A DNA stretch of 64,000 nt from Confluentibacter lentus (GTDB lineage Bacteria > Bacteroidota > Bacteroidia > Flavobacteriales > Flavobacteriaceae), in the NCBI RefSeq assembly GCF_002806995.1, contig NZ_NIHE01000006.1, forward strand, positions 1-64,000. Reading direction: 5' to 3'. A program made the translations under genes and the position numbers. Under the pieces are notes generated by a model. It saw only the letters and a program-made list of their open reading frames with translations, was not told the DNA's origin and made no database searches. Below are positions 8,531-57,605 of this stretch, one piece after another; within the stretch, counting starts at the first letter, position 1, and the number at the start of each line of letters is the position of its first letter.

Positions 8531-8604
8531 ATCTTTAAATTTAATATTGATTAATTCGGAACAACATTCACGATTCTCGCCAGAGGTTAACCCGAAATTG
8601 GCTG

Positions 8605-8612
8605 CAAAGATA
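8605..8612 (-). promoter_or_regulatory. rplS: -7 element upstream of rplS
   Basis: TATCTTTG on the minus strand, a perfect Bacteroidetes -7 box, 75 nt before the rplS start. No clear TTTG at -33. It would give rplS a leader of about 70 nt. Confidence 0.55.
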
Positions 8613-8619
8613 ATTAAAA

Positions 8620-8651
8620 AGTTAAGAGTTAAAAGCTAAAAGCCAAAAGTT
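8620..8651. repeat. Solo copy of the AGTTAAAAGTTAAAAGC repeat
   Basis: This 32-bp element between rplS and trmD matches 28 of 32 positions with the element at 21214-21245 that borders a four-helix-bundle gene. Here there is no ORF beside it. Confidence 0.6.
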
Positions 8652-8666
8652 TTTGAAAATAAGTAT

Positions 8667-15955: not shown

Positions 15956-16060
15956 GCATAGCTTTCAGTCGCAGTCACAATTTTTAGTCGGGTTCAAGTG
16001 AAAATTTGATAAGTTTAGCAACTTTGAACCTTAAACCCAGAACCTAGAACCTTAAAGAGA

Positions 16061-16816
16061 ATGAACGTAATTATTATAGAAGACGAAAAACCATCCGCTC
16101 GCCGTTTGCAACGTATGTTGGAAAAACTGGACATTCAGGCGAAAACCATGTTACATTCGGTTGAGGAATCGTTGGAGTGGTTTCAAAAAAACCAACATCC
16201 CGATTTAATTTTTCTGGATATCCAATTGAGCGATGGTTTGTCGTTTGAGATTTTTGAAACCATCGATATTAAAAGTGCCGTTATTTTCACCACCGCTTAT
16301 GATGAGTATGCGTTGCAGGCTTTTAAACTAAATAGCATCGATTATTTATTAAAGCCCATTGATGAAGACGATTTAGCAAAAGCCGTAAAAAAATACCAAG
16401 AGCGCATCCCGCAAAAGCAAACCGTGAATATCGATTTTAATGATATTAAAAAACTATTGGTGAACCCGATAGATCGCGAATATAAAAAGCGTTTTTCGGT
16501 AAAAGTTGGGCAACATATTAAGCTTATTAATATAGACGACATTGAGTGTTTTTACAGCGAAAACAAAGGCACCTATTTACATTGTACAGACGGTAGAAAT
16601 TATTTGTTGGATACGACTTTAGAACTCTTGGAAAATGAGCTGGAACCACGAACTTTTTTTAGAATAAACCGTAAGTTTTTTGTAAACATTCATGCCATAA
16701 AAGATATGGTAAGCTACACCAACTCGCGATTGCAAATAAAACTAAAAACGTACAATGCTGAAGAAGTTATTGTGGCTAGGGAACGGGTTAAGGATTTTAA
16801 GGATTGGTTGGAGTAG
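16061..16816 (+). CDS. LytR/AlgR-type response regulator (receiver + LytTR)
   Basis: A 251-residue regulator. Receiver domain with acidic pair EDE (7-9), phospho-acceptor Asp53 in LIFLDIQL, Thr/Ala region TTAYDEYA and Lys near 104 in YLLKPID. LytTR DNA-binding domain about 145-250 with FSVKVGQHIKLI, CFYSENKGTYLH, FFRINRKFFVN and VARERVKDFKDW. It belongs with the LytS-type kinase upstream; the 105-nt gap contains words related to AACCTTAAA rather than an evident promoter, so co-transcription is likely. Confidence 0.95.
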   Translation: MNVIIIEDEKPSARRLQRMLEKLDIQAKTMLHSVEESLEWFQKNQHPDLIFLDIQLSDGLSFEIFETIDIKSAVIFTTAYDEYALQAFKLNSIDYLLKPIDEDDLAKAVKKYQERIPQKQTVNIDFNDIKKLLVNPIDREYKKRFSVKVGQHIKLINIDDIECFYSENKGTYLHCTDGRNYLLDTTLELLENELEPRTFFRINRKFFVNIHAIKDMVSYTNSRLQIKLKTYNAEEVIVARERVKDFKDWLE

Positions 16817-19844: not shown

Positions 19845-21206
19845 TTATAGATGGATAATTTTTAAATCCTTCCTCTTTCTTAAATAACTTTGAATAATAT
19901 GCTGGGTATCTCTATTATTTTCCATTTTAGTAATGATAGATTCCAAAACCTCAATGTTGTTTATTTGATAGTTCAGATTGAAAAAGCCCAAACCTTTAAA
20001 AACACCGCTTTCAATGAGTATGGCGCTTCGTTCATCAATATCACGACCTCTGTCAATAATCACCATGTTTTTATTTTTGTAACTATTTTTATTGATGAGG
20101 GCCTCTACGCGTTTATTATAATCTTCTGGTGCTTCTTTTTGGATACAGGCACCAGCACATTCCTTGATGTCGTATTTAAAACAACTCGTTTTTGTATTGT
20201 AAATACCCGTTAGTTTTTGACATAATTGGTACTCTTCAACGGCATTAAACATAAAGGATTTTCCGCTTTGCCTATTTGCAAAGGTGGTAATAGGATTTTT
20301 ACGGCCATCTGCAATATCAATCTTAAGATTGATATACCCATGTTCATCAACAAAACTATACAATGCATGTGTGAATACTTTTCGGCGTAACGCTCTGTTG
20401 TAAATAGGGTTGTTGCGTTTTATTTCTTCACTTTCTTTTAAAAGAGCTACCAATTCACTGCCAGTAGCATCATAAGTGACAGCAGCTACTTGCATTTGTA
20501 TTTTTTTGGACTTCGGATTGGTATTCGTAAAATGTTGATTAATGCGTTTTTTTATATTGTTGCTTTTGCCAATATATATAATTTCACCGTCCGATTTATG
20601 CATATAATAAACACCAGTAATAGCAGGCATTTGTTCGATAATGTTGATATGCCTAGGCTCTAATTGATATTTAGGGTTTAAACGAATGGATTCTTGAATG
20701 ATGCTTTTTGTGGAATCTTTATCCAATAACATTTTAAATAACTTAACTGTCGCCATAGCATCTCCAGCAGCTCTGTGTCTATCCGCCACAGGAATGCCAA
20801 GTGCTCTAACCAATTTTCCTAAACTATACGATTCTTGATTTGGAATCAAATCTTTCGCCAATTCAACTGTACAGAGTGATGGACGTTCAAATTCAAATCC
20901 CAATCGTCTAAATTCCGTGCATAAAATACGGTAATCAAATTGAGCGTTGTGGGCGACTAAAATGCAATCTTCGGTAATTTCAACAACACGTTTTGCGATT
21001 TCATAAAACTTAGGTGCATTGCGCAACATGCTACTATTAATACCTGTAAGATTCACTACAAAGGGTTGAATCTCACGTTCCGGATTTATTAGACTGATGA
21101 ATTGATCAACGATTTCATGACCATCGTATTTGTAGATTGCAATTTCGGTGATGCCTTCTTCATTATACTTGCCTCCAGTCGTTTCTATGTCTAATATTGC
21201 GTACAA
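19845..21206 (-). CDS. DnaQ-like 3'-5' exonuclease fused to a UvrC-like GIY-YIG domain
   Basis: A 453-residue fusion. Residues 1-165: DEDDh exonuclease (AILDIETTGG, LVAHNAQFDYRIL, ADRHRAAGDAMATV) related to the epsilon subunit of DNA polymerase III. Residues ~190-275: GIY-YIG nuclease (ITGVYYMHKSDGEIIYIGKS, IKKRINQHF). Residues ~329-354: four cysteines C-x12-C-x7-C-x3-C, resembling the iron-sulfur ligands of UvrC. The UvrB-binding and helix-hairpin-helix parts of UvrC are absent. Probable role in DNA repair or end processing, like Cho-type nucleases; inference. The next gene downstream (21250) is across a repeat. Confidence 0.9.
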   Translation of the reverse strand: MYAILDIETTGGKYNEEGITEIAIYKYDGHEIVDQFISLINPEREIQPFVVNLTGINSSMLRNAPKFYEIAKRVVEITEDCILVAHNAQFDYRILCTEFRRLGFEFERPSLCTVELAKDLIPNQESYSLGKLVRALGIPVADRHRAAGDAMATVKLFKMLLDKDSTKSIIQESIRLNPKYQLEPRHINIIEQMPAITGVYYMHKSDGEIIYIGKSNNIKKRINQHFTNTNPKSKKIQMQVAAVTYDATGSELVALLKESEEIKRNNPIYNRALRRKVFTHALYSFVDEHGYINLKIDIADGRKNPITTFANRQSGKSFMFNAVEEYQLCQKLTGIYNTKTSCFKYDIKECAGACIQKEAPEDYNKRVEALINKNSYKNKNMVIIDRGRDIDERSAILIESGVFKGLGFFNLNYQINNIEVLESIITKMENNRDTQHIIQSYLRKRKDLKIIHL

Positions 21207-21213
21207 AAAATTT

Positions 21214-21250
21214 AGTTAAAAGTTAAAAGCTAAAAATTAAAAGTTAAAAC
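21214..21250. repeat. AT-rich repeat, downstream arm at the first four-helix-bundle gene
   Basis: AGTTAAAAGTTAAAAGC and following bases. Positions 21221-21250 are complementary in 24 of 30 positions to 21611-21640 on the other side of the gene. A solo relative is at 8620-8651. Confidence 0.6.
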
Positions 21251-21606
21251 TACTGTGGTTTTAACTTCATTGTGTTAATTGTAGAAACCAACATTTTTAT
21301 GAGTTCTTGGTTTAAGTCTATTAATTTATTGAAATTTTCTGATTCTAAATAATCGGAATCTTTAAGTAACAAGAGCCAATACTCAGTTTCACTGGATTCT
21401 TTAAGAGCTATGCTCATTTTGCTTATGAAATCTTTATTTGATTGCGCAAATTCAGCTTCCCTAATATTAGCTCCTATAGAAGTGCCACTTTTTAGTAATT
21501 GTCTACTTAATGTGAATTCTTTCTTGTTTGAAGAAATGGATTTATAAGTTTCAATAATTTGTAATGCAAAATGATAACTCTTATTTTTTAAAATTGATTC
21601 CTTCAT
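21250..21606 (-). CDS. Four-helix-bundle protein (23S rRNA intervening-sequence protein family)
   Basis: A 118-residue helical protein with the IVP/S23 family core: LSRQLLKSGTSIGANIREAE, FISKMSIALKESSETEYWL and a final amphipathic helix. The family was first seen inside 23S rRNA intervening sequences and its biochemical role is unknown. Here the gene is bracketed by imperfect inverted AT-rich repeats (21221-21250 and 21611-21640) between the exonuclease fusion and yggS. A paralogue lies at 31224-31574. Confidence 0.93.
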   Translation of the reverse strand: MKESILKNKSYHFALQIIETYKSISSNKKEFTLSRQLLKSGTSIGANIREAEFAQSNKDFISKMSIALKESSETEYWLLLLKDSDYLESENFNKLIDLNQELIKMLVSTINTMKLKPQ

Positions 21607-21610
21607 CCAA

Positions 21611-21640
21611 CTATTAACTTTTCACTTTTAGATATTAACT
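21611..21640. repeat. AT-rich repeat, upstream arm at the first four-helix-bundle gene
   Basis: Inverted relative of 21221-21250 (24/30 complementary). It lies 4 nt before the four-helix-bundle ATG and overlaps the last bases of yggS. Confidence 0.5.
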
Positions 21641-29012: not shown

Positions 29013-29040
29013 GATTGACGATTTTTGATTGACGATTTTT
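29013..29040. repeat. 14-bp tandem repeat, two copies
   Basis: GATTGACGATTTTT occurs twice head to tail (29013-29026, 29027-29040) and a third partial copy follows. It lies just upstream of the helicase promoter, in the -20 to -50 zone. Confidence 0.8.
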
Positions 29041-29090
29041 GATTTTTTAATTATTGGTGCGTTTTAACATGTTTCCGCTGTATCTTTTTA

Positions 29091-29946: not shown

Positions 29947-31179
29947 CTATTTCCTCAAATTATTAATCCGTTCCAACAACGTAGGATGCGAATAATGCAT
30001 AAAAACATACGCCGGGTGTGGTGTTAAATTGCTCAAACTATTTTTGGATAGTTTTTTTAATGATGTAATTAATGGTTCAGATTTATAGGTGTTTTTGGCA
30101 TAATCGTCCGCTTGGTATTCAAATTTTCTGGAAAACAGATTCATAATTAATCCTGTAATTTCAGAAATTGGTGCATACAACAATCCAAACGCAATTAATC
30201 CAATATGAAAGCTAGGTATTTGAACACCTAATGCATTTGACAATATAGGGTTTGATATAAACAGTGATAAAATATAAAGCATGAGTCCCGTCATTAAAAT
30301 GGAAGCAAACAGATTAAAAATGATGTGCTTCTTTTTATAATGTCCCACTTCATGTGCCAGAACAGCCACAATTTCTTCTTCCTCTAAATCATTAATCAAC
30401 GTATCATAAAGTGTTACACGTTTTTCACTTCCAAATCCCGAAAAATACGCATTGGCTTTGGTGCTACGTTTTGAGCCGTCAATCACAAAAATTTTGTCCA
30501 ATTTAAAACCAACGGTTTGGGCATAGTCGGATATTTTATCTCTTAAACTTCCAGCTTCCAATGGTTTTTGTTTGTTGAACAACGGTACAATCAGTTTGGA
30601 ATAAAACATATTCATAAATAATACAAATACCGCAACTAAACCCCAGGCATACAACCAAAAATAGGTTCCGGTAGATTGGTAAAACCAAATAATTAAGGCT
30701 AAAATGCCGCCACCGACAATAGCCATCATGAGCCAACCTTTGAGTTTGTCTAGAAAAAAAGTGGCTTTGGTTGTTTTGTTGAAACCGAATTTTTCTTCAA
30801 TGACAAACGTGCTGTAATACGAAAAAGGGGTTGTTAAGATATCACTACCTATCATAATGATTCCGAAGAAAATCAAAGCGATCACGATTGAATTATCACT
30901 AAAGCCCCTAGCGATATCGTCAACAAATTCAAAACCGTCAAAAAACAAAAAAGCGAGGGTTAACACCAACGAAAATGTGGAAGTGATGAGTCCGAATCGG
31001 TAATTTGTGGCCTTGTAGTTCTGTGATTTTTTGTATTCTGTTTCATCATAAACATCTTCTAGATCCTTTGGAAGGGTGTCGTTAAAATGTTTGGCATTTA
31101 AAGCATCTAAAATCTTATCAACTATAAAGTTGACTAAGATTATGGCGATGATGATGTAGAATAGTGTTATTGAGGTCAT
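29947..31179 (-). CDS. M48 family metalloprotease (CAAX prenyl protease 1/Ste24-like)
   Basis: A 410-residue membrane zinc protease. N-terminal membrane helix, several further helices (about 60-80, 100-120, 155-205), the zinc-binding helix VLAHEVGHYKKKH (HExxH near residue 274), and a downstream glutamate ligand in SRKFEYQADDYA. Length and topology match the Ste24-type M48A family. In bacteria these proteases degrade damaged membrane proteins; the substrate here is unknown. Confidence 0.94.
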   Translation of the reverse strand: MTSITLFYIIIAIILVNFIVDKILDALNAKHFNDTLPKDLEDVYDETEYKKSQNYKATNYRFGLITSTFSLVLTLAFLFFDGFEFVDDIARGFSDNSIVIALIFFGIIMIGSDILTTPFSYYSTFVIEEKFGFNKTTKATFFLDKLKGWLMMAIVGGGILALIIWFYQSTGTYFWLYAWGLVAVFVLFMNMFYSKLIVPLFNKQKPLEAGSLRDKISDYAQTVGFKLDKIFVIDGSKRSTKANAYFSGFGSEKRVTLYDTLINDLEEEEIVAVLAHEVGHYKKKHIIFNLFASILMTGLMLYILSLFISNPILSNALGVQIPSFHIGLIAFGLLYAPISEITGLIMNLFSRKFEYQADDYAKNTYKSEPLITSLKKLSKNSLSNLTPHPAYVFMHYSHPTLLERINNLRK

Positions 31180-31193
31180 AATAGATGATGAGT

Positions 31194-31212
31194 AATTAAT
31201 AATGAATGATTA
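31194..31212. repeat. 19-bp inverted repeat, downstream arm at the second four-helix-bundle gene
   Basis: AATTAATAATGAATGATTA. Its exact reverse complement is at 31596-31614, on the other side of the gene. Additional related words (TAATAATGTGTGATTAAT) follow. Confidence 0.8.
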
Positions 31213-31223
31213 ATAATGTGTGA

Positions 31224-31574
31224 TTAATCTTTTGATGATTGAATTATTTTGAAAAGTATTTTTAGGATGCTGTTAAGTTCATTTTCTAGTTCTATGAATT
31301 CTTCATTAGAAATATAGTCGGAATCTTTAAGGAGCCTTAACCAATAGTGTGTTTCTCTAGCTTCTTTATAAGAAATGGACATTTTAGCTCGAAAATCTTT
31401 TTTTGAAATGCCGCCTATAGCTTCTTCAACATTTGCCCCAATCGAAGTCCCTGATCTTAAAATCTGCTTTGAAAGAACATATTCATTTTTAGCAATCAAT
31501 ATCCTATTTAATTTAATGATACTAAGTGCTAATGCATAGGTTTTGGTTGCTATTAAATTTTCTTTAAGTATCAT
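31224..31574 (-). CDS. Four-helix-bundle protein (23S rRNA intervening-sequence protein family), paralogue 2
   Basis: A 116-residue helical protein with LSKQILRSGTSIGANVEEA, FRAKMSISYKEARETHYWL and LLKDSDYI, homologous to the protein encoded at 21250-21606 (shared RSGTSIGAN and KDSDY blocks). Role unknown. It is inserted between the M48 protease and RNA methyltransferase genes and is enclosed by an exact 19-bp inverted repeat (31194-31212/31596-31614), so its RNA could close into a long stem-loop like a rRNA intervening sequence. Confidence 0.93.
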   Translation of the reverse strand: MILKENLIATKTYALALSIIKLNRILIAKNEYVLSKQILRSGTSIGANVEEAIGGISKKDFRAKMSISYKEARETHYWLRLLKDSDYISNEEFIELENELNSILKILFKIIQSSKD

Positions 31575-31595
31575 TAATTGTTCATTATTAATTAC

Positions 31596-31614
31596 TAATC
31601 ATTCATTATTAATT
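31596..31614. repeat. 19-bp inverted repeat, upstream arm at the second four-helix-bundle gene
   Basis: TAATCATTCATTATTAATT, exact reverse complement of 31194-31212, 21 nt before the ATG of the four-helix-bundle gene. It is embedded in a longer run of related AT-rich words from 31573 to 31645. Confidence 0.8.
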
Positions 31615-31640
31615 GCACATTACTAATTAGACATTACTAA

Positions 31641-32435
31641 TCATTTCCTCCTCTGTCTCTTCACCTCAAAAATAAGAATGCCTGCAGCGACCGACACATT
31701 CATGGAATCGATGTCGCCTTCCATGGGAATGATGATATTTTGCGTGGCGTTATTTAACCACTCATCACACAAACCTGTTGCTTCTGTTCCGACAACAATA
31801 GCGGTTGGTTTGGTGAAATCTTGTGTGTCATAATTCACTGAAGCCTGCAAAGCAGCGCAATAAATGTTTATGTCTTTTGATTTTAGAAACTCAATAATTT
31901 CCGAAGTTGTACCTGTGGCTATGGGATTTGTAAACACACAACCAACACTGGAGCGGATGATATTCGGATTATACAAATCCGTTTTTGGGTTGGCTATAAT
32001 AACAGCATCCACTCGGGCCGCATCGGCAGTTCTTAAAAGCGCACCGATGTTTCCTGGTTTTTCGGGAGCTTCGGCTACTAAAATTAATGGATTTTTAGTT
32101 TTAAATGTCAGTTCAGTTAGATTATGTTCTTTGCTTTTTGCAACGGCTAAAACGCCTTCGGTGGTGTCGCGATAGGCTAATTTTTGATAGACCTCTGTGG
32201 TAATTTCGATAGTGTTTAGCTGTTTAGTTGTTAAGTTTTTTAGTTGTTCAGAACTGATGATTTCTGGATTAAACAACACAGTTTCCAACTCATACCCACC
32301 TTTTAATGCCAGCATGATTTCGCGTTCACCTTCAATTAAAAACAAACCGCTTTTTTTACGTTCGCGCGACTTATCTTTTAGCTGAATTAACTGTTTGATA
32401 TATGGATTTTGTGTACTGCTAATTTGTTTATTCAT
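31641..32435 (-). CDS. TrmH/SpoU family RNA 2'-O-methyltransferase
   Basis: A 264-residue SPOUT methyltransferase. N-terminal RNA-binding substrate domain (about 1-100; GLFLIEGEREIMLAL), then the knot domain with APEKPGNIGALLRTADA (motif 1), VVGTEATGLCDEW (motif 2) and IPMEGDIDSMNVSVAAGILIFE (motif 3). Target (tRNA or 23S rRNA) cannot be told from sequence. Its ATG overlaps the DUF3810 stop by 8 nt, so the two are translationally linked. Confidence 0.93.
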   Translation of the reverse strand: MNKQISSTQNPYIKQLIQLKDKSRERKKSGLFLIEGEREIMLALKGGYELETVLFNPEIISSEQLKNLTTKQLNTIEITTEVYQKLAYRDTTEGVLAVAKSKEHNLTELTFKTKNPLILVAEAPEKPGNIGALLRTADAARVDAVIIANPKTDLYNPNIIRSSVGCVFTNPIATGTTSEIIEFLKSKDINIYCAALQASVNYDTQDFTKPTAIVVGTEATGLCDEWLNNATQNIIIPMEGDIDSMNVSVAAGILIFEVKRQRRK

Positions 32436-57443: not shown

Positions 57444-57605
57444 TTATATTGTTCTAAATTCAATGTTTTAGGTTCAAAGTTAAGCTAATTATTCAAAAAA
57501 AATGAAGCATGAAAACATGGAACTTAAAACTTTGAACTTTAAATTGTAGAAACTTTGAACTTTAAACTATTTAATCGAAATTTACAAAAAATTCAATTGA
57601 TTTAA

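Follow-up and report, generated by a model that had tools for sequence, protein, structure and literature searches.

Analysis of a 64,000-nt stretch of the Confluentibacter lentus genome (the window) revealed an ORF of the S23/IVP four-helix-bundle family located between genes encoding a SpoU-family methyltransferase and an M48 metalloprotease, and not inside a 23S rRNA gene. The features of this locus, and of a second S23 cassette in the window, are as follows:

29947-31179, minus strand: M48 (CAAX) metalloprotease gene, by profile match; downstream host gene
31180-31223, no strand assigned: heptamer array downstream of S23, inverted relative to the upstream array and reaching the M48 start codon; weaker period-7 stretch at 31186-31218
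31194-31212, no strand assigned: left arm of the 19-bp exact inverted repeat
31224-31574, minus strand: S23/IVP four-helix-bundle ORF, 116 aa (PF05635, TIGR02436, structure match 2rld)
31575-31643, no strand assigned: heptamer array upstream of S23; period-7 stretch at 31568-31623; the first SpoU-side unit contains the SpoU TGA stop
31596-31614, no strand assigned: right arm of the 19-bp exact inverted repeat
31641-32435, minus strand: SpoU-family rRNA/tRNA methyltransferase gene; upstream host gene, adjoining M48 in the 22 host-family loci with both
21250-21606, minus strand: second S23 cassette, flanked by genes for a YggS-family protein and a DnaQ-type exonuclease; its arrays span about 21205-21258 and 21609-21637

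Profile searches assigned the ORF to S23/IVP (PF05635, E 1.2e-27; TIGR02436, E 1.3e-29), with 2rld as the nearest solved structure (E 1.8e-24), in agreement with the identity given in an earlier note on this DNA; PF05635 was the sole match in Pfam, and a known transposase domain (DDE/HUH) was not found in that search. The earlier note had also reported an exact 19-bp inverted repeat around the gene, 11 nt from its stop and with the partner 21 nt before its ATG, and both positions and spacing were correct: AATTAATAATGAATGATTA (31194-31212) recurs at 31596-31614 as its exact reverse complement, and its length far exceeds chance, as 500 dinucleotide shuffles of 31150-31660 gave no exact inverted repeat longer than 13 (arms spaced by 200 nt or more) vs the 19 observed. 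The full arms are, however, bigger and less exact than described, with 40 nt at 85% (31178-31217/31570-31609) and 55 nt at 71% (31172-31226/31596-31650), as each flank consists of a period-7 array, and the two arrays pair with each other in several registers; stretches with elevated lag-7 identity were detected with a scan window of 35 in the upstream and of 21 in the weaker downstream array. The 19-bp arms are the best register of two degenerate 7-nt tandem arrays in opposite orientation, which take up the gap between the stop codon of SpoU and the start codon of M48, and the related AT-rich words seen by the earlier note beyond the arms are units of these arrays. Folding of the cassette as RNA gave a minimum-free-energy structure in which the arms pair, as the proposed stem would have it, but with an unexceptional overall energy (z -1.40; 9 of 100 shuffles equally good), and global RNA stability was rejected as proof of a stem. 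Further period-7 stretches lacking S23 are present in the window at 8604-8656, 16015-16061, 29013-29055 and 57521-57570.

Regarding the distribution of the cassette, M48 was found in 24 of the 40 genomes searched (host included), and 22 of these loci also had SpoU. S23 was detected between the two genes in two of these 22 host-family loci, those of the host and of the congener G004 (S23 protein 95% identical), and no S23 match was detected at the SpoU/M48 junction of the other 20, including the three congeners G001, G002 and G003. The gene is thus not fixed at this locus in all relatives, and the earlier suggestion of a mobile cassette is supported by this distribution as well as by the precise empty sites of other cassettes described below. 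Inspection of the gap sequences of 21 of the 22 loci revealed 76, 83 and 17 nt between the SpoU and M48 matches of the S23-free congeners, and the SpoU C-terminus reads KRQRRK followed by TGA inside the array in the host vs KRQRKFK followed by TAA in G001 and G002. Empty sites joined exactly at the repeats, which the earlier note had looked to as support for mobility, were found in cyanobacterial plasmids but not at the window locus, where the junction has diverged in the relatives and, by eye, some S23-free copies carry other heptamer words (G002, G011, G017). From the distribution we infer that S23 was probably gained at the window junction.

The host genome contains 11 PF05635 genes, and each cassette has its own repeat words, of which those upstream reappear reverse-complemented downstream in most cases; nine of the 11 loci exceed the 95th percentile (11) of arm pairing in 687 control genes. 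All 11 cassettes are located between co-directional genes. Neighbours identified by profile include those encoding a class-I glutamine amidotransferase and a TrpD-type N-terminal domain, thiolase and acyl-CoA dehydrogenase, GHMP kinase and threonine synthase, YggS and the DnaQ-type exonuclease, and a TrmN-type methyltransferase, as well as sufC/sufD, atpA/atpG, mraY/murD and moaE/moaC; other neighbours we take to be lepB, WbqC and DUF1292-like genes by our own reading. At the YggS/DnaQ junction of the second window cassette, S23 was detected in G004 and G021, with no S23 match in G001, G002, G003, G010 and G023. For the ten host cassettes other than that between SpoU and M48, an S23 match was found in 20 of the 66 junction regions covered from seven relatives (70 were possible, four being left out as a flank was missing or distant); one of these 20 copies is truncated and one lies on a cut contig. 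At one and the same junction the S23 family can differ between genomes, and the words with it (moaE/moaC), and S23-free junctions may instead hold other hairpin repeats, another gene or a spacer of only 1-13 nt. The lepB junction of G004 gave no S23 match across approximately 400 nt; another open frame is present there, with an unconvincing best E of 6.6e-4 (113 queries). Hairpin repeats at the same operon junctions were of the type gtcattcctgcgaaggcaggaatc... at five S23-free junctions (L146, L150, L167, L177, L185) and of the type cccctc...ggagaggaaa at three others (L179, L181, L184), and look like separate MITE- or REP-like families.

Among host-family genomes PF05635 was detected in 113 of 149, and in the sample of the phylum Bacteroidota in 157 of 198 genomes. 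A set of 113 host-family loci was compiled from top-scoring PF05635 matches, from which L053 was dropped for stop codons within the match. Flank identity in these loci peaks at lags of 7, 14, 21 and 28, with no such peaks inside the gene or 330-400 nt upstream, and is 0.43 at lag 7 vs approximately 0.29 at most other lags; a lag-7 stretch was detected in an arm of 82 of the 113 loci vs one of 113 control stretches. Pairing of a copy's own arms had a median of 12.5 vs 7.0 for swapped arms, with 61 of 113 loci above the swapped 95th percentile, while only 66 of the 113 exceed the 95th percentile of the 687 control genes. The advantage of own over swapped arms persists when 26 loci from a single orthologous junction are compared (permutation p 0.0005). 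A copy's arms thus resemble one another more closely than they resemble the arms of other copies found there, and so change together. The 5' arm is richer in G than in C in 94 and the 3' arm richer in C in 88 of the 113 loci, and neighbours are co-directional at 98 of 102 host-family S23 loci vs 403 of 690 genes at large, a baseline taken from our own simple gene caller.

Similarly, 25 loci elsewhere in Bacteroidota show period 7 and copy-specific words in the arms. At least 80 further named loci were found by one motif and, after one was dropped for short flanks, comprised 39 listed as Bacteroidota and 40 others, nearly all of other phyla; the former list follows record titles and includes two Balneolota by NCBI ranks, the latter includes one member of the Bacteroidota (L296), and one record title (Bordetella parapertussis, a MAG) looks mislabelled. 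Locus L338 was kept despite a masked upstream flank. In the 40 loci outside the Bacteroidota list, lag-7 identity was 0.42/0.41 and arm pairing was 15 for true vs 6.5 for swapped arms; 28 of the 40 loci lay above the 95th percentile. Enclosure of the ORF by a stem outside rRNA, noted earlier for the window copy, is general across the 113 host-family, 25 other Bacteroidota and 40 further loci. Heptamer arms were also detected in GC-rich loci (Pseudaminobacter, Chitiniphilus, Chloroploca), and in Pseudanabaena galeata the arms are not inverted, both having AAAAGCT/AAAAGCC on one strand. Co-directional context outside Bacteroidota is near the baseline (22 of 37 among the loci listed). Location of S23 in rRNA was rejected for the 20 non-Bacteroidota loci scanned, none of which had an LSU rRNA match, and a search of a phage collection with one query gave no S23 match. 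The S23 tree is poorly resolved, with 17 of 76 inner branches well supported; the Bacteroidota need 15 label changes on it, of which the starred branches force only 4, which suggests that S23 may have been transferred between phyla. Five polar residues are near-invariant (Q37, S44, N48, E51 and E74, window numbering) among 188 sequences, a set partly picked by motif and hence biased as to conservation, and suggest a putative binding or active site.

Filled and empty forms of the same site were found in cyanobacterial plasmids. Site T, which Trichormus variabilis ATCC 29413 carries, is separated by one gene from a VirB10-type gene downstream of it and is filled by arrays and S23 in Trichormus (net insert of 428 bp) and Scytonema, and consists of 13 nt in Microchaete, Nostoc carneum and Aulosira; six records gave two-piece matches at 97.5-97.9% identity, and the three of these that were examined are empty. 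A truncated copy occupies the site in Nostoc C052. At site N, a single plasmid operon, S23 is present at the A/B junction in three plasmids, in one of which it is nested and split, and a different S23 is present at the B/C junction in another plasmid, with a net insert of 505 bp and flanks identical throughout the 30 and 18 nt compared; the empty forms examined have 0-3 nt. The split S23 of Nostoc N6 (L403, 530-1093) is interrupted by additional sequence containing the same heptamers, which looks like a nested insertion. Two Calothrix NIES-22 plasmids carry a cassette at site C, whereas the site is empty (3 nt) in each of the three relatives examined; the two filled loci lie in a common 3.6-kb block and were rejected as separate insertions. 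Direct repeats, which a DDE-type transposon would leave at constant length, are inconsistent at the element ends: they were found at site T (5-bp GTAAT), are absent at N B/C and are ambiguous at N A/B. The empty forms of T, N and C have neither arrays nor S23, so that gene and arrays must have come or gone together there.

The elements at T and N A/B are 77.9% identical over 420 nt, arms included, and form one lineage, of which Aulosira contains a third locus (81.1% identical). Nostoc C052 contains a 170-nt copy with both ends and only a short ORF remnant, and Nostoc TCL26-01 a gutted copy; the flanks of these five loci are unrelated except for one 20-nt blastn match. In Anabaena 90, cas6 and cas4 are separated by S23 and a long GGTGACA/GGGAACA array, which makes up most of the 363 nt after cas6, and TGTCACC units lie within the annotated cas4 start; a Dolichospermum locus 98.7% identical to it has an unrelated GTAGGTTGGGTTGA... 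hairpin element at cas6/cas4 (L391, 1120-1345), and Nostoc UHCC 0302 a gap of 23 nt. The cas6/cas4 S23 cassettes in the type I-D CRISPR operons of Anabaena sp. 90 and Pseudanabaena galeata (L384, L386) have differing heptamer words. Antisense S23 copies were detected in Calothrix PCC 7716 and, between nrdA and nrdB, in Nostoc edaphicum, with none at the latter position in Calothrix NIES-4105; an nrdA stop codon supplied by the array was rejected, as the Calothrix locus without S23 has an identical TAA stop.

Arrays also occur away from S23. In 800 kb of one host contig, 17 period-7 stretches were detected vs 0 to 3 at periods which are not multiples of 7, and a looser setting revealed 22 intergenic period-7 arrays with only two S23 genes, 20 of the arrays lying between co-directional genes. 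This excess could be explained if the arrays were a host feature of operon junctions, either slippage-born spacers or translational elements, into which S23 lands by array recombination and hitch-hikes, and the discussion of heptamer arrays as regulators or G4 elements in the accessible text of two papers (PMC4679880, PMC4692102) agrees with such an S23-independent role. AACTGNN arrays were moreover found in four S23-free Bacteroidota genomes (G251, G235, G257, G266), and a phylum-wide test of these arrays gave no link with S23 (22 of 157 genomes with vs 4 of 41 without S23; p 0.61). G257 has 15 matches of AACTGCC-type arrays on several contigs, and may either have lost S23 or have acquired arrays which spread without it. 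Against this explanation, the cyanobacterial empty sites lack the arrays too, and within the host family three array words are present in 50 of 113 genomes with vs one of 36 without S23 (p 6e-7), the exception being 75% complete; among large complete genomes the counts are 44 of 89 vs 0 of 16. Array density in 400 kb of three S23-free genomes was near background (5.0/Mb vs 3.0), compared with 35/Mb vs 4.6 in the host, and 19 arrays located apart from S23 are more similar to the S23 arms of the host itself than to random sets of others (p 0.005). As the host-family link holds and the one-word phylum-wide test failed, dependence of the arrays on S23 is supported in the host family only. We regard the host-feature explanation as unlikely, though it is the strongest of the alternatives. 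A different periodicity was seen in the S23-free genome G051 (L367-L373), which has 38 period-9 stretches in 140 kb, far above other periods except 18.

Comparison of species shows the gene and both arrays as one block which ends at the outer array edges and is present or absent at operon junctions, one lineage at several unrelated loci and an internally deleted copy which keeps its ends. S23 genes with heptamer arms are thus mobile elements outside rRNA, because filled and empty sites are precise, one element occurs at unrelated loci and a copy with an ORF remnant retains both ends; absence from the window locus in congeners, the same element at unrelated loci and empty sites bounded by the ends are the marks of a mobile element. 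The window very probably holds one copy of such an element, in which an S23/IVP gene is bounded on both sides by inverted, degenerate heptamer arrays and which is inserted between SpoU and M48. Regarding the mechanism, the inverted arrays would fold as a hairpin in single-stranded DNA or RNA, and S23 may recognise this hairpin and help to move or copy the cassette; we infer this role as mobility factor for an ORF whose only Pfam match is PF05635. ORF-less arrays would be moved in trans or be remnants, arrays may lengthen by 7-nt slippage, and template switching between the arms could keep both alike. In the window copy SpoU takes its stop codon from an array unit, so that junctions of this kind would tolerate the landing of an element.

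REP/REPIN elements, which have a RAYT transposase, and MITEs end in inverted hairpins, include non-coding copies, have end families linked to a gene and spread through intergenic regions. The S23 cassettes share these features, with S23 lacking the HUH (Y1) domain; Y1_Tnp was not found in the host genome or in G002. Movement could alternatively proceed through a cassette RNA hairpin copied in trans by a reverse transcriptase, as S23 and Avd of diversity-generating retroelements belong to the same protein family by the resemblance of PF05635 to Avd given in the accessible part of PMC10053308, and as, in Bacteroidota, S23 almost always reads in the same direction as the neighbouring genes. Unlike diversity-generating retroelements, however, most S23-bearing host-family genomes (82 of 113) have no RVT_1 match, including G011 with 16 and G010 with 11 S23 genes, and the host has one match (52 bits) on another contig. 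Together with the antisense copies in Nostoc edaphicum and Calothrix PCC 7716, this argues against obligatory movement at the RNA level and makes retro-mobility improbable; neither a reverse transcriptase nor a Y1 transposase was accepted as a general required partner, as many S23-rich genomes have no match.

The window cassette is like the 23S rRNA intervening sequences (IVSs) of Leptospira and Coxiella in its S23-family ORF, complementary ends, size and patchy distribution. The Coxiella IVS, of 428 nt with a 28-bp stem and an S23-family ORF, is patchily distributed and has been termed a selfish element (PMC4990558, as far as its accessible text goes). By analogy with these IVSs, which share the gene family and complementary ends and are excised by RNase III according to that text, the cassette could be an RNA-processing unit without present mobility, its stem being cut so that two operon genes are decoupled. 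This is doubtful to the same degree as retro-mobility: the cassette is not in rRNA, and precise insertion polymorphism with copies at unrelated loci requires mobility in any case. S23 cassettes further differ from IVSs in being located between protein genes, with copy-specific heptamer-array ends, an ORF-deleted copy and many copies per genome. Chance similarity in AT-rich low-complexity sequence around an ordinary vertically inherited gene, to which the AT-rich flanks and modest fold z-score might point, is refuted by the shuffles, swapped pairs, control genes, GC-rich examples and empty sites and has a negligible probability.

Heptamer arrays have been described as TAACTGA repeats in Beggiatoaceae, Cyanobacteria and Bacteroidetes (PMC4679880) and as GGGAATC and GGGGA(C/T)T repeats in Xanthomonas and Nostoc (PMC4692102). 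As far as the accessible text of these papers goes, the published arrays are, like the S23 arms, 7-nt tandem repeats which are mostly intergenic, with neither S23 nor four helix bundle mentioned in either, and heptamer repeats are stated to be generally not found with mobile elements (PMC4692102). Three further papers, in their accessible parts, merely name such genes (PMC5524665, PMC5787105, PMC10910872). In a literature search mostly without subscription papers, no publication was found which ties heptamer arrays to S23 or reports mobile S23 units outside rRNA; the arrays and the rRNA IVSs have each been published, and for the joining of both we found no paper.

A wider reading, which we put forward tentatively and hold to be somewhat less probable than its negation, is that S23/IVP proteins may drive a transposable-element class of their own across the bacteria, which would travel as a hairpin, have interchangeable heptamer arrays as its ends and use no known recombinase or reverse transcriptase; solo arrays would be its non-autonomous copies and remnants, and rRNA IVSs those copies that landed in rRNA genes. 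The mobile-element reading predicts that S23 binds the arrays, that array turnover depends on S23 and that new insertions arise between neighbouring genes. It offers a candidate answer to the role of the widespread S23 or 'four helix bundle' genes and to the over-representation of 7-nt tandem repeats in many bacterial genomes. Such elements enter core operons, including F-type ATPase, peptidoglycan, Suf, Thr and Trp genes in the host and CRISPR genes in cyanobacterial plasmids, and may retune these.
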